From assembly GCF_003206615.1 (NCBI RefSeq), contig NZ_PZJW01000002.1, forward strand, positions 419,803 through 483,802: a stretch of DNA of 64,000 nucleotides. The letters are read 5' to 3'. The stretch is from Salinicola acroporae (GTDB lineage Bacteria; Pseudomonadota; Gammaproteobacteria; Pseudomonadales; Halomonadaceae). The notes beneath the pieces are model-generated. The model did not search any database and was not told the origin of the DNA. It saw only the letters and a program-made list of their open reading frames with translations. Shown in pieces: positions 10,340 through 51,464 of this stretch (positions are counted from its first letter, which is position 1; each line of letters begins with the position of its first letter). The translations under genes and the position numbers were made by a program.

Positions 10340-11358
10340 TTACGTTTCCAGCACCCGCAGCGCGTCGCCGCTGGTCACGCCCAGCCGCTCGGCTTCCGCG
10401 CTGGTGAGCGCGATCACCCCATCCTCGTCGGGTCCGCGCCCGATCCAGCTGCAGCGGAAGTCGCTCATGCCGGTGGTCGCGGCCATCCAGCCGGGGCGTT
10501 CGGGCTGAGCGAGAGAGTCGCCGCTGACTTCCACCGTGACGCAGGACGAGTGGCGAATGGCGCGGACGTCGTCGATGTAGGCCTCGACCGTGGGGCCACC
10601 GTCGAAGATGTCGATGTAGCCTTCCCAGCGCAGCCCTTCCTTCTTGAGCATCTCCAGCGCGGGCCGGGTGTGCTCGTGGACCTGGCCGATGCACTCCCGC
10701 GCCGCCTGAGGCAGGAACGGCGTGTAGATCGGGTACTTCGGCATCAGTTCGCCGATAAAGCTCTTCTGGCCCAGCCCGGTGAGCTGGTCGGCCTGCTTGA
10801 ACTCCATCGGGAAGAAGTGGCTGCCGAGGCTCTCCCAGAACGGGCTGACGCCCTCCGGGCTGAACACGCCGCGCATTTCCGCCAGCACCTTGGCCGGAAA
10901 GCAGTCGCGAAACTCCGCCATGAACAGCCAGCGCGCCTTGGAGAGCAGCGTGCCGTTGCGATCGCGGCGATAGGCCGGACGCAGGAACAGCGAAGCCACC
11001 TCGGCATCGCCGGTGTGATCCGAACTCAGAAACAGCGTATCGATGGTGCGATGCAGATCGAGCTGAACCGATGAGTGGGCCAGCTTGCCGACACGGTAGT
11101 GATAGAACGGTGTCTCGCGGCCAACCTCGGCCTCGATCGCGCAGCATCCGGCCAGTTCGCCGTTCTGCTCATCCTCGAGTACGAAGAAATAGAGTCGCTC
11201 CGACTCGGGGACTCGGCCCTCGAAAGCCGCCACCGCGTTGGCGATCTTGGCTGCCAGGAATTCTCGGCTGTTGGGCAGCGAGGTGAAACCGACCCCGGTT
11301 TCCTGGGCCAGTGCCTGCAGCTCGTCGATATCGTGGTGCCCAATGGGTCGCAGGCGCA

Positions 11359-38081: not shown

Positions 38082-39206
38082 ATGAAACTGCTCGCCACGA
38101 TCCAGAAGGTCCCCGGAGGCCTGATGGTGGTCCCCCTCATCTTTGGCGCCGCGCTCAATACCATCGATCAGCTCCACCTGCCCTGGATCACCGCGATCCT
38201 GCAGTGGCTGGGTGCGGGGCAGACCGACAGCGGCCAGTACGAATTCCTGCGCATCGGCGGTTTTTCCCAGGAGCTGTTCAAGGATGGGGCGCTAGTGCTG
38301 ATTGCGCTGTTCCTGTTCTGCTCCGGTAGCCAGATGAACCTGCGCGTGGGCGGCAAGGCGCTCAAGAAAGGCGCTCTGCTGGTCACCGCCAAATATCTGA
38401 CCGGCCTGGCGGTAGGTGTGGGTCTGGGCCTGATGTTCGATCCGATCGATGGCCTGCTGGGTCTTTCGACGGTGGCGATCATTGCCGCCATGACCAACGG
38501 CAACGGCGGCATGTACGCGGCACTCACCAGCCAGTACGGCAACCGCTCCGACACCGGCGCGGTGGCGATCCTGTCACTCAACGATGGCCCGTTCTTCACG
38601 CTGATGTCGCTGGGCCTGCTGGGCTCCCAGTTCCCGGTGATCGCCTTCATCGCCGTACTGCTGCCGATCGCGCTGGGGATGCTGCTGGGCAATCTCGATC
38701 GCGACATTCGCACTTTTCTCAAGCCCGGCGAGATCCTGCCGGTGCCGTTCTTTGCCTTTGCCCTGGGCGCCAACATGAACCTGGCGGCCTTCTTCAATCC
38801 CGAGGTCGTGGGGGCCGGCCTGCTGCTGGGCGTCATGACGACGATACTGACTGGTGGCGCCGGTATCCTGGTCTTCCGGCTGTTCCGCGAGCCCAGTGTC
38901 ATCGCCCCGGTGTCGGAAGCGACCACGGCCGGCAACGCTGCCGGAACGCCGGCCGCCATCGCCGCCGCGGCAGCGGTGGCCGCCAACTCGGGCATGATGA
39001 GCGCGGCCGAGGCGCAGAGCTATCATGACCTGGTCAACATCGCCACGTCGCAAATCTCGATCGCCACGCTGACGACCGCCATCCTCGGGCCGATCGCCGT
39101 GATGCTGGTCGACCGCTGGCAGAAGAGACGCGGTATCGATGGCACCCTCGAGGACGAGCCCCACCTTCGTGCCGGCGACGAGCTGAGCACGGCGCGCGAC
39201 GGTTGA
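38082..39206 (+). CDS. kdgT: 2-keto-3-deoxygluconate permease family transporter
   Basis: 374 residues against about 327 for KdgT; the extra part is a 40-residue C-terminal tail. The family segments KVPGGLMVVPLIFGAALNT, MTNGNGGMYAAL and LSLNDGPFFTLMSLG are plain. It imports sugar-derived acids (2-keto-3-deoxygluconate in enterics) by proton symport. It heads an operon with larA, larE, larB and larC, which suggests the permease brings in the 2-hydroxy acid on which the LarA-type enzyme acts. The real substrate may differ from KDG. Confidence 0.88.
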   Translation: MKLLATIQKVPGGLMVVPLIFGAALNTIDQLHLPWITAILQWLGAGQTDSGQYEFLRIGGFSQELFKDGALVLIALFLFCSGSQMNLRVGGKALKKGALLVTAKYLTGLAVGVGLGLMFDPIDGLLGLSTVAIIAAMTNGNGGMYAALTSQYGNRSDTGAVAILSLNDGPFFTLMSLGLLGSQFPVIAFIAVLLPIALGMLLGNLDRDIRTFLKPGEILPVPFFAFALGANMNLAAFFNPEVVGAGLLLGVMTTILTGGAGILVFRLFREPSVIAPVSEATTAGNAAGTPAAIAAAAAVAANSGMMSAAEAQSYHDLVNIATSQISIATLTTAILGPIAVMLVDRWQKRRGIDGTLEDEPHLRAGDELSTARDG

Positions 39207-39288
39207 GCGACGTCACGTCGATATCGTGGCATGCTGAAAACCACGCGATTCCCCGGCGGCGCGCCAGCGCCGTCAACCTGGAGCCCTC

Positions 39289-40551
39289 ATGAAAACCTCT
39301 CTGCTCTACGGCAAGGGTGAGCTGGCACTCGACTTGCCGGACGACGCTTTCGTCGTCGAACCGCCGACACAACACGCCATGACGGATCCCGAGGCCGGGG
39401 TACGCGAAGCGCTGGACTCGCCGATCGGCACGCCCCCGCTAAAGGAGATGGTCAAGGCCAGCGATACGGTCGCCATCGTGATCAGCGATATCACCCGGCC
39501 CACGCCCAACCACCTGCTGGTGCCGCTGCTGATCGAAGCGCTCGATCACGTGCCGCACGAGAATTTCGTCATCATCAACGGCACCGGGACCCACCGCGAC
39601 CAGACGGTCGAGGAGCTCCGCGGCATGCTGGGCGACTGGGTGGTGGACCACATCGAGATCATCAATAACCACTGCGACAACTACGACGAACTGGTCAACG
39701 TCGGCGACAACAGTTTCGGCTGCCCGTCGTGGCTCAACCGGCGCTGGGTCGAGGCCGATTTTCGCATCGTCACCGGCTTCATCGAACCGCACTTCTTTGC
39801 CGGCTTCTCCGGCGGCCCCAAGGGCGTGATGCCGGGCATCGCCGGTCTCGAAACGATCATGACCTTCCATAATGCCCGCATGATCGGCGACCCGCGGTCG
39901 ACCTGGGGCAACATGGACGATAACCCGCTGCAGGCGATGACCCGCGAGATCAACGCGCTGTGCCCGCCGCATTTCATGCTCAACGTCACGCTCAACCGCG
40001 ACAAGGCGATCACCCGGGTGTTCGCCGGCGACCTGACCGAGGCGCACCGTCAGGGCTGCGAGCACGAACTCGAACACGCGATGGTGAAGGCCGATCGGCG
40101 CTTCGACGTCGTGATCACCGGCAACTCCGGCTATCCGCTGGACCAGAACCTCTATCAGGCGGTCAAGGGAATGAGCGCCGCGCACAAGATCGTCAAGCGC
40201 GGCGGCACCATCCTGATGGCCTGCGAGTGCTCGGACGGCATTCCCGATCACGGCAAGTTCGCCGAGATCCTGGCCATGGCCGATTCGCCCCAGGCCCTGC
40301 TCGAGATGATCGAGGAGCCGGGGTTCGCCATGCTCGATCAGTGGCAGGTTCAAAAGCAGGCGGTCATCCAGAGTTGGGCCGACGTCATGCTCTACTCGAC
40401 GCTGAGCGATGCCCAGGCGCGCGCCGCCTTGATGGAACCGGTCCACGATATCGCCGAGACGCTGCAGACGTTGAAGGCGCGTTACGGCGAGGAAATGACC
40501 ATTGCCGTGATGCCGCTGGGGCCGCTGACCGTGCCCTATGTCGATGATTGA
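39289..40551 (+). CDS. larA: LarA-family nickel-pincer racemase/epimerase
   Basis: 420 residues (L. plantarum LarA 424). The active-site set is intact: His102 in GTGTHRD, His168 in [10 protein letters not shown], Lys178 in GGPKGVMPG and His194 in MTFHNAR. As I recall them, the L. plantarum residues are His108, His174, Lys184 and His200, a constant offset of six. LarA enzymes use the NPN nickel cofactor to invert the alpha carbon of 2-hydroxy acids. Next to kdgT, an aldonate or C4 sugar acid seems more likely than lactate. CTGGAG precedes the start; larE, larB and larC follow. Confidence 0.92.
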
Positions 40552-40582
40552 GCATCGACCACCATCTAAAGGGAGGGGACCC

Positions 40583-41488
40583 ATGACCTCGATGGCCCGA
40601 GCCGAACGGATCGATGCCGTGACCGTGGAGGCGGCACCGTCGCACTCGCCTGGCGTGCCGCTGACAGCCGATGTGGCCCAGGGCGCCGAACTCGATGCCA
40701 AGCTCGAACGGTTGCGCCAGGTGCTGCGCGAGATGGGCGACGTGGTGGTGGCATTCTCCGGCGGCGTCGACAGCACCTTCCTGCTGGCCATCGCGCTGGA
40801 GACACTGGGCCGCGAACGCGTCCTGGCGGTGACCGCCGATTCGGAATCCTATCCGTTCGAGGAACTCGATGCCGCCCGCGACTTGGCTCGGCGCCTAGAG
40901 GCGCCGCACCGAGTCATCGAGACCTCGGAGATCGCCATTCCCGGTTACGCCGACAACGACGCCAACCGCTGCTACTACTGCAAGTCCGGCCTGTTCACCC
41001 ATCTCGCGCCGATCATGGTCGATGCCGGATTCCACAATATCGTGTTCGGCCTGATCGCCGACGATGACGGCGAGCACCGGCCCGGCACCCAGGCCGCCCG
41101 CGAGTATGGCGTCCGCGGCCCGCTGCACGAAGTCGGGCTCTACAAGGCCGAGATTCGCGAACTCTCCCAGGCCATGGGCCTGCCGACCTGGAACAAACCG
41201 TCGCTGGCCTGCCTGTCGTCGCGGGTTGCCTACGGCGAGCGCATCACGCTGGAGAAGCTGGAGCGGATCGCCGAGGCCGAGCGTCGCGTCAGAGCCCTGA
41301 ACATCGGCCAGCTCCGGGTGCGTCATCATGGCGAACTGGCCCGGATCGAGGTCGAACCCCAGAACATGGCGACGGTGCTCGAACATCACGACCGGCTGGT
41401 CGCGGAGCTCACGGCACTGGGTTATGCCTGGGTGACGCTGGATCTGGCCGGCTATCGCAGCGGCAGCATGAATCGGCTGCTGTCTTGA
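40583..41488 (+). CDS. larE: NPN cofactor sulfur insertase LarE
   Basis: 301 residues. PP-loop ATPase motif SGGVDS at 59-64. The sulfur-donor Cys210 lies in [12 protein letters not shown]. Two further cysteines, Cys130 and Cys133 in NRCYYCK, give the three-Cys pattern of [4Fe-4S]-type LarE (T. maritima class), unlike the sacrificial single-Cys L. plantarum enzyme. It thiolates the carboxylates of the pyridinium precursor. Start set at 40583 after GGGAGGGG. Confidence 0.93.
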
Positions 41489-41510
41489 CTCCGGATCGAC
41501 AGGATAAGGC

Positions 41511-42275
41511 ATGACCGAACGCTCCATCTCCGACCTGGGATTCGCCCGCGTCGACCATGATCGTGAAGCCCGCAACGGTGTCCCCGAAGTCGTTTTCGGC
41601 GAGGGCAAGCAGGCCGACCAGATCAGCGCCATCGTCGGCCGCCTGATCGATCGGCACCGGCGAGCGCTGGTCACGCGCCTCGACGCCGAACGCGCCGATC
41701 GAGTATTGCGGGATCATCCCCACGGCCACTACGATCCGATCAGCCGGCTGCTTTGCTGGGGCGCTCCCCCCAGACGCCTTCCCGGGACCGTGGCGGTGAT
41801 TTGCGCCGGCACCTCCGACCTGCCGGTGGCAGAAGAGGCCGCAGGCACGCTCGAATGGCTGGGCGCCGACGTCGCCCGACTCAATGATGTCGGCGTCGCC
41901 GGCATCGATCGACTGCTGGCCCACCGCGAGGCGCTGACCCGGGCCGACGTGCTGATCGTGATCGCCGGCATGGAGGGCGCGCTACCCAGCGTGGTCACCG
42001 GGCTGGTTCGCAACCCGGTGATCGCGGTACCCACCTCGGTGGGCTACGGCGCCAGCCTGCAAGGCGTCACCGCGCTGCTCGGCATGCTGTCGGCATGCGC
42101 CACCGGCATGAGCGTGGTCAACATCGACAACGGCTTCGGCGCCGCCTGGCAGGCCGCCAGCATCCTTTCGCTGCTAGAACGCGGCCCCGATCCGCGCCCC
42201 GCCAGCTTCGAGAGCAGCGCGTCCGCCGCGCCGACATCTCATCCGCCAGCCTCCACCGAGCCTCGGACCTCATGA
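41511..42275 (+). CDS. larB: NPN cofactor carboxylase LarB
   Basis: 254 residues. N-terminal half with PEVVFGEGKQADQI, C-terminal PurE-like domain with CAGTSDLPVAEEAA and AVPTSVGYGASLQG. LarB carboxylates nicotinic acid adenine dinucleotide and hydrolyses it to the mononucleotide, the first NPN step. The last 30 residues are Ser/Pro/Ala-rich. The stop overlaps the larC start (ATGA). Confidence 0.93.
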   Translation: MTERSISDLGFARVDHDREARNGVPEVVFGEGKQADQISAIVGRLIDRHRRALVTRLDAERADRVLRDHPHGHYDPISRLLCWGAPPRRLPGTVAVICAGTSDLPVAEEAAGTLEWLGADVARLNDVGVAGIDRLLAHREALTRADVLIVIAGMEGALPSVVTGLVRNPVIAVPTSVGYGASLQGVTALLGMLSACATGMSVVNIDNGFGAAWQAASILSLLERGPDPRPASFESSASAAPTSHPPASTEPRTS

Positions 42276-43552
42276 AGACGCTTCACATCGACTGCACCTT
42301 CGGTATCGCCGGCGACATGCTGCTGGCGGCACTGGTGGACCTCGGCGCCGATCTGGATCAGATCGCCGTGGCGTTGCGGCGCTTGCCGATCGATCCGTTC
42401 GCACTCGAAACCCGGTCGGTGGATCGTTGCGGTATCCGCTCGCGGTTGCTCAGGATCGCGCTCGAACCCGAGGGTCACGATCACTCCCACGGCCATGACC
42501 ACCAAGACCACGACCACGACCACGACTACGACCACGGCCACGGCCACGGCCACGACCACGAGCATGCGCCTGGCCATCGCCGGGCCGGTGACATTCTGGC
42601 GATGGTTGCCGACGCCGATCTGCCCCCTCGCGTGGGGCGCCGGGCGACGGCGATCTTCACTGCGATTGCCGAGGCCGAGGGTCGAATCCACGGCATCGAC
42701 CCGGCCGAGGTTCATCTGCACGAAGTGGGCGCGATGGACTCGATCATCGACATCCTCGGCGTCTGTCTGGCGCTGGAGGCCCTCGATATCGAGACGATCA
42801 CCGCGACCCCGGTGCCGGTGGGGTACGGCGTGGTCAGCATGGCCCATGGCCGCTTCCCGATCCCCGCGCCGGCCACGCTGGAACTGCTCAAGGGCGTACC
42901 GCTGTCCACCTTCGAACCCGATGTCGCGGGCGAGCTGACCACCCCCACCGGTGCCGCGTTCCTGGCCACGCTGGTCGAGTCGTTCCGCCCTGCGCCAGCG
43001 GGGACACCGGTCGAGATCGGCTACGGTGCCGGCAATCGCGACTTCCCCCACCCCAACGTACTGCGCGTGATCTCGCTGGAAACGGCGGCACCCGATCAGG
43101 GCAGAGAGACCATTGCCGTGCTGGCCTGCCAGCTCGACGATGCCACCGGGGAGCAACTGGGTCATCTGATGGGCGTCCTGCTGGACGCCCGGGCCCTCGA
43201 CGTGTTCTACACCCCGGTGACGATGAAGAAGTCGCGCCCGGGAACGCTGGTCACGGTGCTGGCGCCCTGCGACGAAGCCGATCGCCTGGAGACGCTCATG
43301 CTGCGCCACTCGCCGACGTTCGGCGTACGCCGTCACCACACCACGCGACGCATCCTCGAGCGCCGGATAGAGTCTGTGGAAATCGATGGCATCAACGTGC
43401 GCTTCAAGATCGGCAGCCTGGACGGCGAAGAGATCCGCGTCGCTCCGGAGTATGAAGACATCGCGCGTTTCGCTCGCGAACGCGCCAAAACGTTGGATGA
43501 GGCCCAACGACTCGTGCTTGAGGCCTGGCATCGGCAAACCGCCGCCGACTGA
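42272..43552 (+). CDS. larC: NPN nickel insertase LarC, single continuous chain
   Basis: 426 residues. Starts TLHIDCTFGIAGDMLLAALVD (family opening, here split: HIDCTFGIAGDM). A His/Asp-rich segment at about 69-102 (HDHSHGHDHQDHDHDHDYDH and on) is a probable nickel-binding loop. C-terminal CTP-binding part includes YGAGNRDFPHPNVLR. It inserts Ni into the pincer using CTP. In L. plantarum LarC is produced by a programmed frameshift; here both parts lie in one frame. Last gene of the kdgT-lar operon. Confidence 0.93.
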   Translation: MKTLHIDCTFGIAGDMLLAALVDLGADLDQIAVALRRLPIDPFALETRSVDRCGIRSRLLRIALEPEGHDHSHGHDHQDHDHDHDYDHGHGHGHDHEHAPGHRRAGDILAMVADADLPPRVGRRATAIFTAIAEAEGRIHGIDPAEVHLHEVGAMDSIIDILGVCLALEALDIETITATPVPVGYGVVSMAHGRFPIPAPATLELLKGVPLSTFEPDVAGELTTPTGAAFLATLVESFRPAPAGTPVEIGYGAGNRDFPHPNVLRVISLETAAPDQGRETIAVLACQLDDATGEQLGHLMGVLLDARALDVFYTPVTMKKSRPGTLVTVLAPCDEADRLETLMLRHSPTFGVRRHHTTRRILERRIESVEIDGINVRFKIGSLDGEEIRVAPEYEDIARFARERAKTLDEAQRLVLEAWHRQTAAD

Positions 43553-43620
43553 CAGCTTCCGCTCAGAATCTTGCCTATCTAGAGACCTCCTCTAGCTCTA
43601 GCCCTCGCCCCCGTTCCGGC

Positions 43621-43653
43621 ATCGTGAACTGATCATTTCAGTCAGTTCACGAT
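43621..43653 (+). terminator. Hairpin after larC
   Basis: Perfect 12-bp stem ATCGTGAACTGA/TCAGTTCACGAT with a 9-nt loop, 68 bp past the larC stop. No U-run follows, so termination strength is uncertain; it separates the kdgT-lar unit from the next promoter. Confidence 0.55.
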
Positions 43654-43756
43654 CACCAGATAACTCCCCACCCAGCGCGCTCTATAAAAACAGAGAACTC
43701 CAGACGTTTACGACCTAAGGCGTATCGCTAGACGATGGTATATGTTGTTCAATATG

Positions 43757-43771
43757 ATTGATTCGATCATT
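43757..43771. promoter_or_regulatory. Island operator 2, upstream of the NRAMP-like gene
   Basis: ATTGATTCGATCATT, two changes from the perfect palindrome at 54782. A further half-site, TTATTGATCAC, follows at about 43772. It ends 35 bp before the ATG, so a bound protein would block initiation. The stretch around it is AT-rich, unlike the flanking coding DNA. Confidence 0.65.
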
Positions 43772-43806
43772 TTATTGATCACATTCATCATATCGAGATC
43801 AGCAGC

Positions 43807-45165
43807 ATGTCCGCGAAAGACATCGATGCCGCCTCAGGATCGCTCCCACCCAAACTCCCACGGACTGTGGGCGACTACGTGCGTAGCGTGGGCCCAGGGC
43901 TCGTGCTGGCAATGGCGTTTCTCGGCACCGGCGATCTGGTCAGCTCCACCGTTTCGGGTGCCAATTACGGCTACGCGCTGATGTGGACACTGGTGCTCGC
44001 GTTGACCGCTCGCTACTTCATGATTTCAGCCATCGCCAAATACAAACTGGCCAATCGATTCGAAGACTCATCGCTGATGGCAGGCTATCAACGCCTGTGG
44101 AAGGGGTTTCCAGCATTTTTCGCCATTCTGATGCTGATCTATGGCCTTATCATTCAGATGAGTTTCATGCGCGCCTGCGCGGTTGCCCTCGCTCATCTGG
44201 TCGAGTCCACCGGCGTACCACTGCCCGACGACATCGGTCTTTCGCTGATGGGGCTCATCGTCATGGTGCTTTCACTGGTCATGCTGTCAGGCCACAACGC
44301 CTTTCGTTGGCTCGAACGGCTGGCTCGAGTTGCGTCCGTAGTCATCATTGGCTCGTTCGTCTATGCCCTGTTTCGGATCGGCCATATCGATTTCCCCGCT
44401 CTGCTCAGCGGGCTGACGTTTGCGGTGCCGCAGGATAACGGCCCGTTCGACGCACTATTTATCGCCGTGGCGACGATCGGCACCATCGGCGGCTCAGCGA
44501 TCAATTTGCTCTACCCCTACTTCATGGATGATCGCGGCTGGAACCGACCCGCTCATCGCAAGATCCAGCGACTCGATCTGATCGGCGGAATGCTGCCACT
44601 GCTGATCATCAACGCGCTGTTCTGGATCGTGGCGGCGGAAACGCTTCGTGGGACGGGCGTGACCGTCTCCAGTGAATCTGACCTCGCCACGATGATGCAG
44701 ATGGCAGTGGGTGAATGGGGGCCCACGCTGCTCTGGATTAGCCTGTTCATGGCGGCTTTCACCAGCTTCCCGGCACAGGCGCATGGGCTCGCCAAACTCA
44801 TGTTCAACGGGCTGCACCTGGCCATCGGCAAGAAAGACGGTGAGATGCGTCCCGAGCAAGATCCACGCTACCGGCCGACGCTCATCGGTCTATTCATCGT
44901 CGCACCACTATTCATCACCCTACCTTTTGCACCCAATCTCGTTTATCTGAGCGTCTTTGGCACCAGCGTGGTCACGGCCACGGTATTGCCGCCGATCCTG
45001 ATCGGCATCCTGATACTGACGACCAGCAAGCGCTTCATGCTCGACGACTACGCCAACAAATGGTGGGAGACGCTCATCCTGAGCATCATCTCCGTCATCG
45101 GGCTGTGGTCGCTCTACGCCATTCTCACCAACCTGGTCGACGCCATCCAGAGAGTCGCCAGTTAA
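43807..45165 (+). CDS. NRAMP-related permease lacking the DPGN metal motif
   Basis: 452 residues, about eleven membrane helices. The opening VGPGLVLAMAFLGTGDLVSS aligns with the canonical Nramp first helix, but DPGN is replaced by GTGD (residues 40-43). In helix 6 the metal-binding MPH is also absent: GGSAINLLYPYF. The usual Mn/Fe substrate is therefore doubtful. Being first in an operon of sugar-acid enzymes suggests either an organic-acid permease or a nickel/magnesium carrier serving the Lar system. Function open. Confidence 0.8.
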   Translation: MSAKDIDAASGSLPPKLPRTVGDYVRSVGPGLVLAMAFLGTGDLVSSTVSGANYGYALMWTLVLALTARYFMISAIAKYKLANRFEDSSLMAGYQRLWKGFPAFFAILMLIYGLIIQMSFMRACAVALAHLVESTGVPLPDDIGLSLMGLIVMVLSLVMLSGHNAFRWLERLARVASVVIIGSFVYALFRIGHIDFPALLSGLTFAVPQDNGPFDALFIAVATIGTIGGSAINLLYPYFMDDRGWNRPAHRKIQRLDLIGGMLPLLIINALFWIVAAETLRGTGVTVSSESDLATMMQMAVGEWGPTLLWISLFMAAFTSFPAQAHGLAKLMFNGLHLAIGKKDGEMRPEQDPRYRPTLIGLFIVAPLFITLPFAPNLVYLSVFGTSVVTATVLPPILIGILILTTSKRFMLDDYANKWWETLILSIISVIGLWSLYAILTNLVDAIQRVAS

Positions 45166-45187
45166 CTTGCCCACTCGAGGACACCTC

Positions 45188-46081
45188 ATGAGTACCACGC
45201 AATTTCGAGGCATCGTGCCTGCCATGATCACCCCGCTAGACGAGCATGAGGAGATCGACGAACAAGGTCTGCGTGATCTGGCCGAAACCCTGATCAACAA
45301 GGGCGTTCACGGGCTCTTCGCGCTGGGCACCAACGGCGAGTTCTTCTCGCTCACCGATGACGAAAAAGTGCGCGTTGCCTCGATCGTCAAGGACCAGGCC
45401 GCGGGACGCGTACCGGTCTTCGCCGGCACCGGCGGCTACACCACTCGTGGCGTGATCGAACTGAACCGCCGCATGGAAGACGTCGGTATCGATGGCCTAT
45501 CGATCATCACCCCCTACTTCAATGGCGCCACCCAGGCCGAGCTGATCACGCATTACGAGCGTATCGCGGAGGCCACCGACCTGCCGATCCTGCTCTACAC
45601 CATTCCGGCCAAAGCGGGGGTGACACTAACCGTACCCAGCGTGGCGAAACTCTCTGAAATACCCAATATCCGTGCCATCAAGGACAGTGGGGGCGACTTC
45701 GACCGCCTGGTGCAATTGATCCGCCTGCGCCGCGATGACTTCGCCGTCTTCACCGGCACCGACTCGATGATCCTGTGGACGTTGATGGCCGGCGGTGATG
45801 GCGCCGTTGCCGCAACCACCAATGCCGTACCCGATGTCGTGATGACGATATGGAATGCCTGGCAGGCCGGCGATTTCGAAACGGCTCGCGAAGCTCAGGA
45901 GAAGCTCCGCCCTCTGCGCAGCGCCTTTGCGCTGGGGACCATGCCGAGCGTACTGAAGACGGCTGCCGCGCTCCTCGGCATGCCGGCCGGCCCGGCTCGC
46001 TCTCCGGTGCAGGCGCTGGAGCCGGACGCGTTGGATAAACTCAAGCAAGCCATCAAGGTCTACGATCGTGTCGAACGCTGA
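45188..46081 (+). CDS. DHDPS/NAL-family aldolase or synthase
   Basis: 297 residues of the pyruvate-Schiff-base class I fold: LGTNGEFFSL, Tyr137 in LLYTIPAKAG and Schiff-base Lys165 in IRAIKDSGGD. It is not the housekeeping DapA (found at 23.0-23.9 kb). In sugar-acid clusters such enzymes split 2-keto-3-deoxy acids to pyruvate and an aldehyde, but no dehydratase to make such an acid is present here. GAGGA precedes the ATG at 45188. Its stop is directly followed by the remnant of the kinase gene. Confidence 0.85.
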   Translation: MSTTQFRGIVPAMITPLDEHEEIDEQGLRDLAETLINKGVHGLFALGTNGEFFSLTDDEKVRVASIVKDQAAGRVPVFAGTGGYTTRGVIELNRRMEDVGIDGLSIITPYFNGATQAELITHYERIAEATDLPILLYTIPAKAGVTLTVPSVAKLSEIPNIRAIKDSGGDFDRLVQLIRLRRDDFAVFTGTDSMILWTLMAGGDGAVAATTNAVPDVVMTIWNAWQAGDFETAREAQEKLRPLRSAFALGTMPSVLKTAAALLGMPAGPARSPVQALEPDALDKLKQAIKVYDRVER

Positions 46082-47059
46082 CGCAGGACCGATCAGCGGA
46101 CCGCCCCGGCTTACCCCGCCACCGGCCGCACCACGCACGGCGGTCGTCAGTGGCTTCATGGCCAGCCGGTAGAAGAGACGGAGGTCTGGACCAACGAAGG
46201 CATTACCGGCCAGGCCGACCTGGTGGCGATGCTTCGGGGTGCGGCGCTGAGCACCGCCCACCTCGATCTCGATGCGCTCAACGGCCGCGACGAGGATGTC
46301 TTCGCCACACTACGCGAGCAGCAGCGGCTGGGCGTCCAGGCCGTTGTCTGCGATGCCGAGACCGATGACGACTTGCGACGCCTCGCGGCCCTCAGTGCCG
46401 GGTTGAAAAATGTCTTCTGGGTCGGTTCCGCCGGTCTTGGCGACATGCTTCCCGAAGCGCTGAAGCTCGCCGGAAGCGTGGCCGGCCATCCTGCGCCGCT
46501 CCCTCGCTCACGCCCGACAATGATCGTCATCGGCAGCATGAGCGCTACCTCTCATGCGCAGGCCGACGCGCTTGTCGATCACGCCAAGGGGCTGGAGGTG
46601 ATCGAAATCGAAGCCGCCACACTGCGCCCGGCAGCCCCGCAAGGCGCCGTCGACGCGTTGAATCTGCGCGTTGCCCAGGCCTTAGCAGGGGGGAAAGACG
46701 TGATGGTGCGCCTTCATCAGAGCCAGGATCGCAACGCATCTGAAGGGGCACGGCTCAGTCTCGCGCTGGGAGCGTTGCTGGCGCCACACTTCGAAGCCAT
46801 CGATCGCCTGATCGCCACGGGCGGCGCTACCGCCCGAGCACTGCTGATAGCGGCCGAGATCACCGAACTCTCGCTACTGGACGCTCCCGATACCGGTATG
46901 GCACGGCTGCGCTGCCAACCCGGTCCGCGCCAACTGGAGGTCGTGACCAAGGCTGGTGGTTTCGGCGACACCCACGCCTTTCAACGGGTCTGGAACGACA
47001 GGCCCATTGCTACCGCTTCTTCGCCCACACATTTGCCCAACCCAAGGACACTGTCATGA
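46082..47059 (+). pseudogene. DUF1537 four-carbon-acid sugar kinase, 5'-truncated
   Basis: In one frame after the upstream stop the sequence reads APAYPATGRTTHGG, HGQPVEETEV and on through KNVFWVGSAGLGDML to IATGGATARALL, the middle and C-terminal parts of DUF1537 kinases (about 420 aa). Roughly the first 100-130 residues are missing, including the ADDLTGA substrate motif. No start or ribosome site precedes the remnant; the earliest in-frame start is GTG at 46223. A deletion that joined the aldolase 3' end to the kinase interior explains this best. DUF1537 kinases phosphorylate threonate or erythronate-type acids. Confidence 0.8.
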
Positions 47060-48066
47060 GCGAACGTCCCGTCATTGGTATCACCATGGGCGATGCCGCT
47101 GGCATCGGTCCCGAAGTCATCGTCCGCGCGCTCGCCCACGACTCGGTTCACGATATCTGCTGTCCGCTGGTCATCGGTGATGCCGGACGCCTGCGCAAGG
47201 CAATGGCCATCGTCGGTTCGAAGCTAGAGCTACACACCGTCGAATCCCCCAGTGAAGCGCACTTCGAGCGCGGTACGCTCGAGTGTATCGATCTCGGACT
47301 GATCCCCGACGATCTACCTTGGGGTGCCGTTTCCAGCATCGCCGGTGATGCTGCCTATCAGTACATCGCCAAGACCGTCGAACTGATCGAGTCCGGCGAG
47401 CTGAACGCGATCTGCACCGCACCGCTCAACAAGGAAGCGCTACACGCCGGCGGTCATATCTTCCCCGGCCACACAGAGCTACTCGCTCATCTCACCGGTA
47501 CAGAAGAAGTCTCGATGATGCTGGTGACGCCGAAGATGAAGGTCATACACGTCACCACCCATATCGGCATCATCGATGCCATCGCGCGTATCGAACCCAG
47601 CCTGGTAACTCGCACGATCGAACGCGCTCACGAAACCCTGGCGCGTGCCGGTCAGCACGACCCACGCATTGCAGTCTGCGGCATCAACCCTCACGCCGGA
47701 GAAAACGGTCTGTTCGGTTATGGCGAGGAAGAGGAAAAGATCGTCCCCGCGATCAAGGCATTGCGAGAGCGCGGATGGAACGTCGAGGGCCCGCTGCCTG
47801 CCGACACGCTGTTCTTCCGTGCCGGCCGCGGGGACTTTGACTGCGTGGTGGCAATGTACCACGACCAAGGTCATGGCCCGGTCAAGGTGATGGGCCTGGA
47901 AGCCGGCGTCAACGTCACCGTCGGTTTGCCGGTGGTGCGTACCTCGGTCGATCACGGCACCGCCTTCGACATCGCAGGTAAGGGTATCGCCGACGAACGC
48001 AGCCTGATCGAGGCCCTACGCCAGGCGGTAGAGCTCGCCAGCCGTCCCGTGAAAGCCCAGGCATAG
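47056..48066 (+). CDS. pdxA2: PdxA2-type 4-phospho-C4-acid dehydrogenase
   Basis: 336 residues of the PdxA family; metal-binding His residues lie in HVTTHIGI, the NPHAGENGLFG motif and MYHDQGHGPVKV. PdxA2 oxidises 4-phospho-D-threonate or -erythronate and decarboxylates it to dihydroxyacetone phosphate. Partnership with a DUF1537 kinase is the known context, and here the kinase remnant overlaps it (ATGA). AAGGA precedes the ATG, so it can be translated on its own. The vitamin B6 PdxA would lie elsewhere in the genome. Confidence 0.85.
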   Translation: MSERPVIGITMGDAAGIGPEVIVRALAHDSVHDICCPLVIGDAGRLRKAMAIVGSKLELHTVESPSEAHFERGTLECIDLGLIPDDLPWGAVSSIAGDAAYQYIAKTVELIESGELNAICTAPLNKEALHAGGHIFPGHTELLAHLTGTEEVSMMLVTPKMKVIHVTTHIGIIDAIARIEPSLVTRTIERAHETLARAGQHDPRIAVCGINPHAGENGLFGYGEEEEKIVPAIKALRERGWNVEGPLPADTLFFRAGRGDFDCVVAMYHDQGHGPVKVMGLEAGVNVTVGLPVVRTSVDHGTAFDIAGKGIADERSLIEALRQAVELASRPVKAQA

Positions 48067-48154
48067 CGCCGGCGTCGCATTCACCATCTGAAAGCGCCGC
48101 CGCTCGAATGAATGCACCGAGCGTGCGGCACGAACGACAGAGAAGGAGAACACC

Positions 48155-49054
48155 ATGGAACGCATCGGTTTTGTCGGCCTTGGCCTGATGGGCGGCTACA
48201 TGGCGCAGAACATTCTCGAGGCCGGCTACCCGCTGACCGTTGTTGCCCACCGCAATCGCGGGACCGTCGACACATTGACGGCCCTTGGTGCCAGTGAAGC
48301 AGATGATGCCGCCGCCCTCGCCGCCCAATGCGACATCGTGTTCGTCTGCGTGCCAACCTCCGAGCATGTCGAGTCGGTCATCGAAGGCGAGAAGGGGCTG
48401 CGGGCCGGCGCCAAGGCGGCGGACCACAAGCTGATCATCGTCGACTGCTCGACGTCCGAGCCCACGGTGACACGGCGGCTGGCGGCATCACTCGAGACCG
48501 ATGGCATCACCCTGGTCGACGCAGCACTTGGCGGCACGCCGACCCAGGCGGAATCAGGACAACTTCAGGCGATCGTGGGCAGCGACGACGAGACGTTGGC
48601 GCGATTACGCCCAGTGCTCGAGACCTGGGCCGGCAAGATTCTCCACTGCGGCCCAGTCGGCGCCGGACATACCATGAAACTGCTCAACCAGTTCCTGGCC
48701 ATGAGCTATGGTGCCGTGTTTTCCGAAGCCCTCACTATCGGCGCCAAGGCCGGTATCTCGCCTCAGACCTTCGACAGCGTCATTCGCGGTTCACGCATGG
48801 ACAGCGGGTTCTATCAGACGTTCTTCCAATATGTGCTGGAACGTGACCGCAACGCCCATCGTTTTACCCTTGCCAACGCGGGCAAGGATATCCGCTACGT
48901 GGCTGCACTGGCCGATGCGCTGAACGTCAAGGCGGGCGTCGCTCACGCCGTGAGCGATCTTTATACCAGCGCCCTGGATCAAGGCGAGGGTGAGAAATTC
49001 GTCCCGGAACTGTCCGATATCGTCGCCGCCCGGCATCAGCTGTCGCTGTTCTAA
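48155..49054 (+). CDS. Beta-hydroxyacid dehydrogenase, LtnD-like
   Basis: 299 residues. NAD-binding GFVGLGLMGGYMA at 5-17 and catalytic Lys175 in GAGHTMKLLNQ, the 3-hydroxyisobutyrate dehydrogenase fold. In C4-acid clusters such enzymes are L-threonate (LtnD) or D-erythronate dehydrogenases; related ones act on tartronate semialdehyde. AGAAGGAG precedes the start. Lying between pdxA2 and a 2-hydroxyacid dehydrogenase, it most likely oxidises a sugar acid, but the isomer cannot be read. Confidence 0.85.
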   Translation: MERIGFVGLGLMGGYMAQNILEAGYPLTVVAHRNRGTVDTLTALGASEADDAAALAAQCDIVFVCVPTSEHVESVIEGEKGLRAGAKAADHKLIIVDCSTSEPTVTRRLAASLETDGITLVDAALGGTPTQAESGQLQAIVGSDDETLARLRPVLETWAGKILHCGPVGAGHTMKLLNQFLAMSYGAVFSEALTIGAKAGISPQTFDSVIRGSRMDSGFYQTFFQYVLERDRNAHRFTLANAGKDIRYVAALADALNVKAGVAHAVSDLYTSALDQGEGEKFVPELSDIVAARHQLSLF

Positions 49055-49076
49055 TTCGCCGTTCAGAGGAACTCTC

Positions 49077-50027
49077 ATGAAAATCGTCTGTACTTCCCCT
49101 TCGTTCGCCAAGTACTCGGAGCGGCCTTACCAAGTCATCGATGCTGCTGGTATGACGTTCGAAAGCTTGCCAGCAGATATCGATGAGGCCAGCTTCATCG
49201 AGCACGCCGCCGATGCCGACGCCGCCATCGTCGCTTTCAATCCGATGACCGAGACTGTTTTTGCCGCGCTGCCGAATCTGAAAGTGGTCGCCAAGCACGG
49301 CGTCGGCGTGGACAACATCGATCTCGCCGCCGCCGCGCGTCACGATGTCCGTATCACCAACGTGCCCGCTGCCAACCGCCACGCCGTCGCCGACTTCACC
49401 TTTGCCCTGCTGCTTTCACTGGCACGCGACATACCGAGAGTGGACGCCGGCACCCGTTCAGGCGACTGGCCCCGTTGTTTCGGTCGCGATGTCCATGGCA
49501 TGACGCTGGGTATCGTGGGCATCGGCAGTATTGGCCAGGCGGTAGCCAAACGCGCTGCCGGCTTCGAAATGTGCGTCATCGCTCACGACCCTTTCGCCGA
49601 TCCCGCCACAGCCGTCACGCTTGGCGTGGAACTGGTCGATCTGGACACCTTATGTCGCGAAGCGGACTTCCTGACGCTGCATGTGGGCCTGTCCGAGCAG
49701 ACGCGCCATCTGATCGATGCCAAGCGCCTGGCGCTGATGAAGCCAACAGCCATGCTGATCAATGCCGCTCGTGGCGGCATCGTCGACGAACAAGCCTTGT
49801 TCGATGCGCTAGAGGCCAAGCGCCTGGCCGGGGCCGCGCTGGATGCGTTCGAGCAGGAACCGCTGGAGAGCAGCCCTCTATTTGCCCTCGACAACGTCAT
49901 CGTCAGTTCACACATCGCAGGCTACACAGAGAATGCCCTGACGACCTTGAGCCTCAGCTGTGTCGAGGACGTCATCGCCGTCCTGCGCGGCGAGGATCCC
50001 CACCACCCGGTTGCACTAACACGCTGA
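49077..50027 (+). CDS. D-2-hydroxyacid dehydrogenase (SerA/Pgdh-like)
   Basis: 316 residues. The catalytic triad is Arg232 in INAARGG, Glu261 in FEQEPLE and His279 in SSHIAGYT; the NAD loop is GIVGIGSIGQAV (about 145-156). It lacks the ACT regulatory domain of biosynthetic SerA. It probably interconverts a 2-keto acid and a D-2-hydroxy acid in the island's pathway. AGAGGA precedes the ATG, 22 bp after the LtnD-like gene. Last gene of the rightward catabolic operon. Confidence 0.88.
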   Translation: MKIVCTSPSFAKYSERPYQVIDAAGMTFESLPADIDEASFIEHAADADAAIVAFNPMTETVFAALPNLKVVAKHGVGVDNIDLAAAARHDVRITNVPAANRHAVADFTFALLLSLARDIPRVDAGTRSGDWPRCFGRDVHGMTLGIVGIGSIGQAVAKRAAGFEMCVIAHDPFADPATAVTLGVELVDLDTLCREADFLTLHVGLSEQTRHLIDAKRLALMKPTAMLINAARGGIVDEQALFDALEAKRLAGAALDAFEQEPLESSPLFALDNVIVSSHIAGYTENALTTLSLSCVEDVIAVLRGEDPHHPVALTR

Positions 50028-50147
50028 TGGGCTAACTCCGCTACCGAAAGAATTCGTGCCACCCGTGAGGGATGGCGCGTTACCCAACATGACCGATGTC
50101 GATATCTTCGAGATCAACATCTCGATCCAGACCTTTGGAACGAGGCT

Positions 50148-51464
50148 TCAGTGAGGCCACTCGTCGAGCAACCGACCGTCATCGCCGAAACGCATCGGCC
50201 GTGGTTCCTGCAGGATCTCGATTCCGGCCCTATCTCGAAGCGCCGGTAGTAGCGCCTCGGACGCGTAGAGATATTCGAGATGAAGCGTATTGGGGATGCG
50301 CATGACGCCAATCGCCTCCGGCGTATGCGAGCCGCAGGTCTTTACCGCGGCTTGAATGGCACTGCGATCGTCAGGCATCGCCAAGGGAATGGAGGCGGCG
50401 ATCAGCACGCCGGAGGTGAGCGAATTGGTATAAACCTTTTCGCGGTCGAAGCGCTGAAACAGCCGTTCGGTAATGACATCGGCCCGAGCGACGCCGTTGG
50501 CGTTACCTTCGCTCTTGTCGGTGACATCCAATACCGCAATGCGCGACACATCGGGGCCGCCGCTGATCGCCGTGGAAGATGGCCGGCCGGTGATATTGGG
50601 GTCCATGCCGCTGCCCGAAAACTCCTTGCCGACATGATCGACGATCAGTACGTCCAGCGGACCGGAGGCAAGCGGCGCCTCCGGAGGCCCGAGCGGTAGC
50701 CTCGGCATGTTGCGCATCGCTTCGCCAAGATAGACTCGCTCGTCCTCGATCAGCGTCTGGCGTGGCAGAACAACGACCCGGGCAAGTCGGTCGTAGGCAT
50801 TCTCGATCGTGCCGATCCCGAACAGGACACGACATTTTTCGAGTTTCATGCGCGCCATTTCGACGATGAAACGCCCGACGTAATGGAAACCCCAGGCGTG
50901 GCAGTTGTCTGCCCCCGACTGCTTGCCCAGCCCGATGGAAAGCATCTTGACCAACCCGCTCTCGTTGTCGGAACGGAAGGCACTGTGGGGTTTGATGCGA
51001 TTGAACAGCACGATGCCGTCGGCTTCGAAAGCAAGCTTATCGATCTGCACCGACATGCCATTGTCGAGCCGGCCGATCTCGACCGTTTCCATGCTCGAGC
51101 GAATCGTGCAGCCAGCGCTCTCCTCGGTCACACCAAGGTGCGCCAGCACGCTGACCTGCCCTTCCGCGGTGGCGCCGCCGTGACTTCCCATGGAAGGGAC
51201 GATGAACGGCTTGGCACCGCGGGCGAGCAGCTCGTCGACGATAGCCTTGACGAGTTCCGGGAGACTGGCCAGCCCGCGACTGCCCACCGTCAGAGCCACG
51301 GACATCCCCGGTCGAATCGTGTCGCCAACCACGGCGGCCTGTGCCATCGCGGCTTCCACGGCAGACACCGGGTCACCCGCATCCTCGGTATCGAAGTGCT
51401 GACGGACCAGCGCCATCGGAGGCAGCGCCACGCCCTCCACGAGTTTCGCGTAGCTTGGCTTCAT
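50148..51464 (-). CDS. Second, divergent LarA-family (DUF2088) racemase/epimerase
   Basis: 438 residues, only remotely like the island's first LarA but with the cofactor residues in place: His95 in SMGSHGG, His160 in NRIKPHSAF, Lys173 in GLVKMLS and His189 in DNCHAWG (Lys-to-His distance 16, as in LarA). Such proteins need the same nickel-pincer cofactor, which larEBC upstream could supply. It follows tctA on the same strand with GGAGGAG before its ATG. Substrate probably the acid imported by the TctABC system. Confidence 0.82.
   Translation of the reverse strand: MKPSYAKLVEGVALPPMALVRQHFDTEDAGDPVSAVEAAMAQAAVVGDTIRPGMSVALTVGSRGLASLPELVKAIVDELLARGAKPFIVPSMGSHGGATAEGQVSVLAHLGVTEESAGCTIRSSMETVEIGRLDNGMSVQIDKLAFEADGIVLFNRIKPHSAFRSDNESGLVKMLSIGLGKQSGADNCHAWGFHYVGRFIVEMARMKLEKCRVLFGIGTIENAYDRLARVVVLPRQTLIEDERVYLGEAMRNMPRLPLGPPEAPLASGPLDVLIVDHVGKEFSGSGMDPNITGRPSSTAISGGPDVSRIAVLDVTDKSEGNANGVARADVITERLFQRFDREKVYTNSLTSGVLIAASIPLAMPDDRSAIQAAVKTCGSHTPEAIGVMRIPNTLHLEYLYASEALLPALRDRAGIEILQEPRPMRFGDDGRLLDEWPH

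Follow-up and report, generated by a model that had tools for sequence, protein, structure and literature searches.

A net 328-bp deletion probably made a pseudogene of a DUF1537 acid-sugar kinase gene in Salinicola acroporae

Introduction

Behind an intact aldolase gene of the salt-loving bacterium Salinicola acroporae, an open reading frame sets in within a DUF1537 kinase sequence, and we were curious to know whether this gene has been inactivated, is used in a shortened form or was incompletely assembled. The window, by which we mean the whole analysed stretch of 64,000 nucleotides, is part of a contig of 625,965 bases (C12) in a genome of 4.37 Mb, 32 contigs and 99.99% completeness. Features lie on the forward strand unless stated otherwise.

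Results

The open frame at 46082-47059 translates into DUF1537 sequence starting at APAYPATGRTT (46103), with the N-terminal part absent; translation and Pfam matches bear out the preliminary description of this DNA, according to which the frame resumes inside a DUF1537 protein just behind the aldolase stop. The remnant (46103-47059; 318 codons from APAYP plus the stop) comprises the second half of SBD_N along with the complete NBD_C. While both domains are expected to be complete in a functional DUF1537 kinase, the SBD_N match spans only positions 110-228 of 230; the NBD_C match is complete (1-168 of 168), at 65.9 bits against a cut-off of 28.3. The ADDLTG motif, likewise expected of a functional kinase, is found in 12 of 12 related loci and nowhere in the window copy. 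The N-terminal domain had earlier been described as lost: the deletion is real, whereas what it removed is the leader and roughly the first half of SBD_N, not the whole domain. The remnant shares its frame with the aldolase, whose TGA separates the two, a coincidence to be expected by chance in one case of three.

The closest sister locus is that of Salinicola socius SMB35 (G014, contig NZ_MSDO01000005.1; L033 and L066), which has the same aldolase-kinase-pdxA2 order and an orthologous kinase with about 80% identity over the common 318 codons. The sister kinase has 453 residues including ADDLTG, whereas the window copy is without everything before residue 122 and is frameshifted relative to its own start. 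At the DNA level, similarity to the S. socius locus extends to about 11 bp past the aldolase stop (263/290) and picks up again at 46102 (264/298), which places the deletion junction in the interval 46082-46102. The distance from the kinase GTG to APAYP is 35 nt in the window vs 363 nt in S. socius, a net loss of 328 nt, or 109 codons plus 1 nt; the alignment and these distances agree with the earlier placing of the junction no more than 25 bp from the aldolase stop, and the measured loss fits the estimate of some 100-130 missing residues including the ADDLTGA motif. Residues 1-121 of the S. socius kinase precede the part common to the remnant, and the lost residues include ADDLTG and KKVDSTLRGN. 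Solved structures of the DUF1537 family include 4xfm, 4xfr and 1yzy; in an alignment with the first of these, the stretch around ADDLTG in the sister corresponds to ADDFTG. At its 3' end, the S. socius kinase gene carries a short in-frame repeat of three PTHS-type units (L066 about 10828-10900, reverse strand), of which the window has one unit (46997-47059).

The kinase of S. socius starts at a GTG that overlaps the end of the aldolase gene, and a GTG in this overlapping position is found in each of the six printed loci with the aldolase upstream (G014, G016, G005, G015, Halomonas citrativorans and H. dongshanensis). The window keeps the equivalent GTG at 46068, so that the earlier statement that the gene has no start was wrong in detail: the native start remains, out of frame with the gene body, where a functional kinase would have it in frame. 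Because the 328-nt loss is not a multiple of three, this GTG now runs into a stop at 46170-46172 and specifies a frameshifted peptide of 34 residues (46068-46172). Inside the remnant, the longest ORF with a possible start is a GTG-initiated one of 278 aa (46223-47059), a putative reading frame.

Among the relatives, the kinase is one uninterrupted frame with the N-terminal motif in each of the ten further Salinicola loci that have it and in both Halomonas loci; two further rows, duplicates of G006 and G009, were left out of these 12 related loci. Such intact orthologs at the same place are what is expected where a pseudogene arose by deletion, and they support the in-operon deletion that had been proposed. 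In a wider survey, 29 of 275 family genomes gave a kinase match at E<=1e-30 (31 rows), and 27 of these 29 had a full-length, single-frame match (28 rows). In six of the 27, the sole match is 41-45% identical and may belong to another subfamily; without these six, 21 of 23 are full-length. The two exceptions are the source genome, which matches residues 121-452 only, and G222, where the gene is split. In G222 (G222:C1:203788-204995) the kinase lies in two frames, divided near residue 301; with 86% completeness and 6% contamination of that assembly, the likely cause is a sequencing indel. No short form of the kinase was found among the relatives examined (the 12 related loci and 275 family genomes); its conservation in sister strains had been named as the outcome that would speak against a deletion. 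Across the 18 Salinicola genomes, the kinase is intact in ten, a remnant in one and without a strong match in seven; it is an accessory gene of patchy distribution in this genus.

The remnant has no stop in its 318 codons, and its dN/dS between window and S. socius is 0.212. For the printed pairs of intact Salinicola kinases with dS <0.9 (n=23), dN/dS lies at 0.199-0.282 in 21, the others being 0.364 (G014-G003) and 0.419 (G003-G008, a very close pair). At columns on which all 12 other sequences agree, the window copy deviates once and the sister in two cases; the highest count is seven, in H. citrativorans. Unique changes, unseen in the other 11 sequences, number 13 in the window and 13 in the sister; by a simple binomial bound, at most about 29% of the branch can have been fully neutral. 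When changes were polarised with at least eight of the 11 others agreeing, seven were assigned to the window, three to the sister and five stayed undecided, from which no bound follows; with all 11 others agreeing, the counts were one, two and one. These counts, which have little power, give no clear excess of changes over the sister of the kind expected under relaxed selection in the remnant. In a simple simulation, the probability that a neutral remnant had acquired no stop was 0.02 after 0.21 substitutions per site, which is half of the pairwise dS, and 0.36 after 0.05. Without stops and with a dN/dS of 0.21, the remnant is not clearly decayed, which makes a recent loss probable; the word 'recent' in the preliminary description is consistent with this picture.

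The genes on either side are intact. Upstream lies a DapA-type aldolase/lyase of the DHDPS family (45188-46081; stop TGA 46079-46081; PF00701, 270.9 bits), and downstream follow a PdxA-family, PdxA2-like dehydrogenase (47056-48066; TIGR00557, 363.7 bits vs a cut-off of 290.35), whose ATG overlaps the kinase stop, and a GarR/HIBADH-like reductase (48155-49054; PF03446 and PF14833); the profile matches of the latter two agree with the earlier remark that the downstream genes are intact. The trio of kinase, pdxA2 and GarR-like reductase recurs in 12 of 12 related loci, where the reductase follows pdxA2. Judged by dN/dS against S. socius (0.066 for the aldolase, 0.021 for pdxA2), both genes are strongly constrained. 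A scan for promoters and terminators gave three and four sites vs 1.7 and 3.3 in shuffles, none of them at the junction.

We then turn to the substrate. The best NCBIfam model for both the intact sister and the remnant is that of the D-threonate kinase DtnK (NF047819), whose cut-off of 450 is far above the 183.7 bits of the S. socius kinase and the 88.7 bits of the remnant; for this reason, no substrate is assigned here, and the earlier naming of D-threonate is not supported as stated. Neither does the OtnK model NF043035 (cut-off 350) reach its threshold, with 70.1 bits for the remnant and 99.2 for the S. socius kinase. PdxA2 scores 340.1 vs a cut-off of 583 for D-threonate 4-phosphate dehydrogenase, while it exceeds the general pdxA cut-off.

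A profile search of the genome for PF07005 returned the remnant and one OtnK (3-oxo-tetronate kinase) on contig C23 only (L065:8443-9753), which scores 621 bits vs the OtnK model cut-off of 350. Its neighbours are the genes for L-threonate dehydrogenase (LtnD), OtnC, OtnI and D-erythronate dehydrogenase (DenD), each above its own cut-off. This OtnK belongs to the same superfamily as the window kinase, but it shares only 24.7% identity with the S. socius kinase in the aligned region and sits in a canonical otn cluster, that is, in a different pathway. All ten Salinicola genomes with an intact kinase also contain one or more full-length SBD_N genes in this high score class, and the scores suggest that these genes are OtnK as well. 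Since an OtnK-class gene and the intact kinase normally coexist in the ten sisters, simple redundancy is argued against and OtnK is not an obvious substitute, although it may substitute weakly. A search of the genome for the lost N-terminus, with the first 121 residues of the S. socius kinase as query, gave six weak matches (best E 0.012), one of them OtnK, and no close intact kinase copy was found in the genome. Of the earlier proposal that a kinase elsewhere complements the loss, the existence of one other DUF1537 gene stands; the presence of the OtnK class in all ten sisters speaks against it as an obvious substitute.

Discussion

We consider it highly probable that the gene is a loss-of-function pseudogene, formed when a DUF1537 acid-sugar kinase gene lost a net 328 bp from its 5' part by deletion. 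The deletion would have occurred in the source Salinicola lineage, leaving the GTG at 46068 to yield nothing other than the frameshifted 34-residue peptide. DUF1537 proteins have conserved residues in the half of the sugar-binding domain that was lost here, and because of their loss we infer that no active kinase is made. The kinase-dependent branch, from acid sugar via acid-sugar phosphate to PdxA2, would then be off, unless OtnK substitutes weakly, and the event would be recent, given the constraint still apparent in the remnant and its neighbours. Two points sit less easily with a pseudogene: a remnant without clear decay, with no stop, a dN/dS of 0.212 and one changed invariant column, would also fit a short form under selection, and the aldolase and pdxA2 remain strongly constrained.

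An assembly or consensus error, in which the kinase gene of the strain is complete and the assembly misses about 330 bp of it, is unlikely. Flanking pathway genes that look intact and constrained would suit it; the junction, however, lies deep within a contig of 626 kb, a search of the remaining assembly did not bring up the lost segment, junction words of at least 14 nt do not recur in the window, to which this check was confined (one 12-mer does), and the two sister flanks have no longer word in common than one of 7 nt, which lies away from the breakpoints. No repeat that would explain a collapse or a homologous deletion was found in the window and the two sister flanks. There may be microhomology at the deletion junction, for which the sister flanks stood in for the ancestral left flank.

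We give even less credence to a functional short form, that is, a remnant whose translation begins at an internal start and which selection maintains. The 318 open codons, the dN/dS as in most intact pairs, the single change at an otherwise invariant column and the internal GTG ORF of 278 aa all speak for it, but relatives with such a form are lacking among those examined, half of the sugar-binding domain is missing, the old start meets a stop after 34 residues, and a recent deletion accounts equally well for the undecayed state. The more specific version, a C-terminal, nucleotide-binding half-kinase made from the internal start and kept by selection in the species, perhaps as a regulator or a partner of OtnK, is more doubtful again. 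Hardly credible at all is stop-codon readthrough that fuses the aldolase to the remnant as one protein; the common frame, to be expected one time in three, is in its favour, whereas the six printed loci with the aldolase upstream have one gene for the aldolase and another, overlapping one for the kinase, and the fused part would still be without half of the sugar-binding domain.

Read as a pseudogene, the locus offers a clean, small example of an accessory catabolic cluster starting to decay, where one internal deletion disables the kinase and the neighbours stay intact. Automated annotation may label the 278-codon ORF a kinase and so credit the strain with an acid-sugar pathway that it probably does not have. 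The case is one of ordinary gene decay, and the picture of the DUF1537 family stays as it was.

The surroundings of the cluster deserve a few observations of their own. Directly upstream of the aldolase, kinase and pdxA2 genes lie a kdgT-like permease gene and the nickel-pincer cofactor genes larA, larE, larB and larC (window 38082-50027), and the larA-E-B-C block precedes the kinase in eight of 11 Salinicola loci, the window included. A connection of a nickel-pincer epimerase with the kinase/PdxA2 pathway is possible; a literature search for nickel-pincer, kinase and PdxA in one paper returned none. Between larC and the aldolase gene, an Nramp-family transporter gene is located (43807-45165; NF037982, 80.2 bits vs a cut-off of 50), whose cargo may be nickel for the cofactor or the substrate. 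Besides, a second NPN enzyme gene at 50148-51464 on the reverse strand matches the model 'nickel pincer cofactor-dependent isomerase, group 22' (486.3 bits vs a cut-off of 400) and adjoins TctA/TctC-like transporter genes; the terms 'group 22' and 'LarAH22' do not appear in the passages of the LarA literature that were searched. Going by synonymous distances to the three sisters compared, the cluster at 38082-51464 looks mosaic: kdgT to larC is nearest to G009 (dS 0.08-0.22), the Nramp-like gene to G016 (dS 0.85), and aldolase to pdxA2 to G014 (dS 0.39-0.49).
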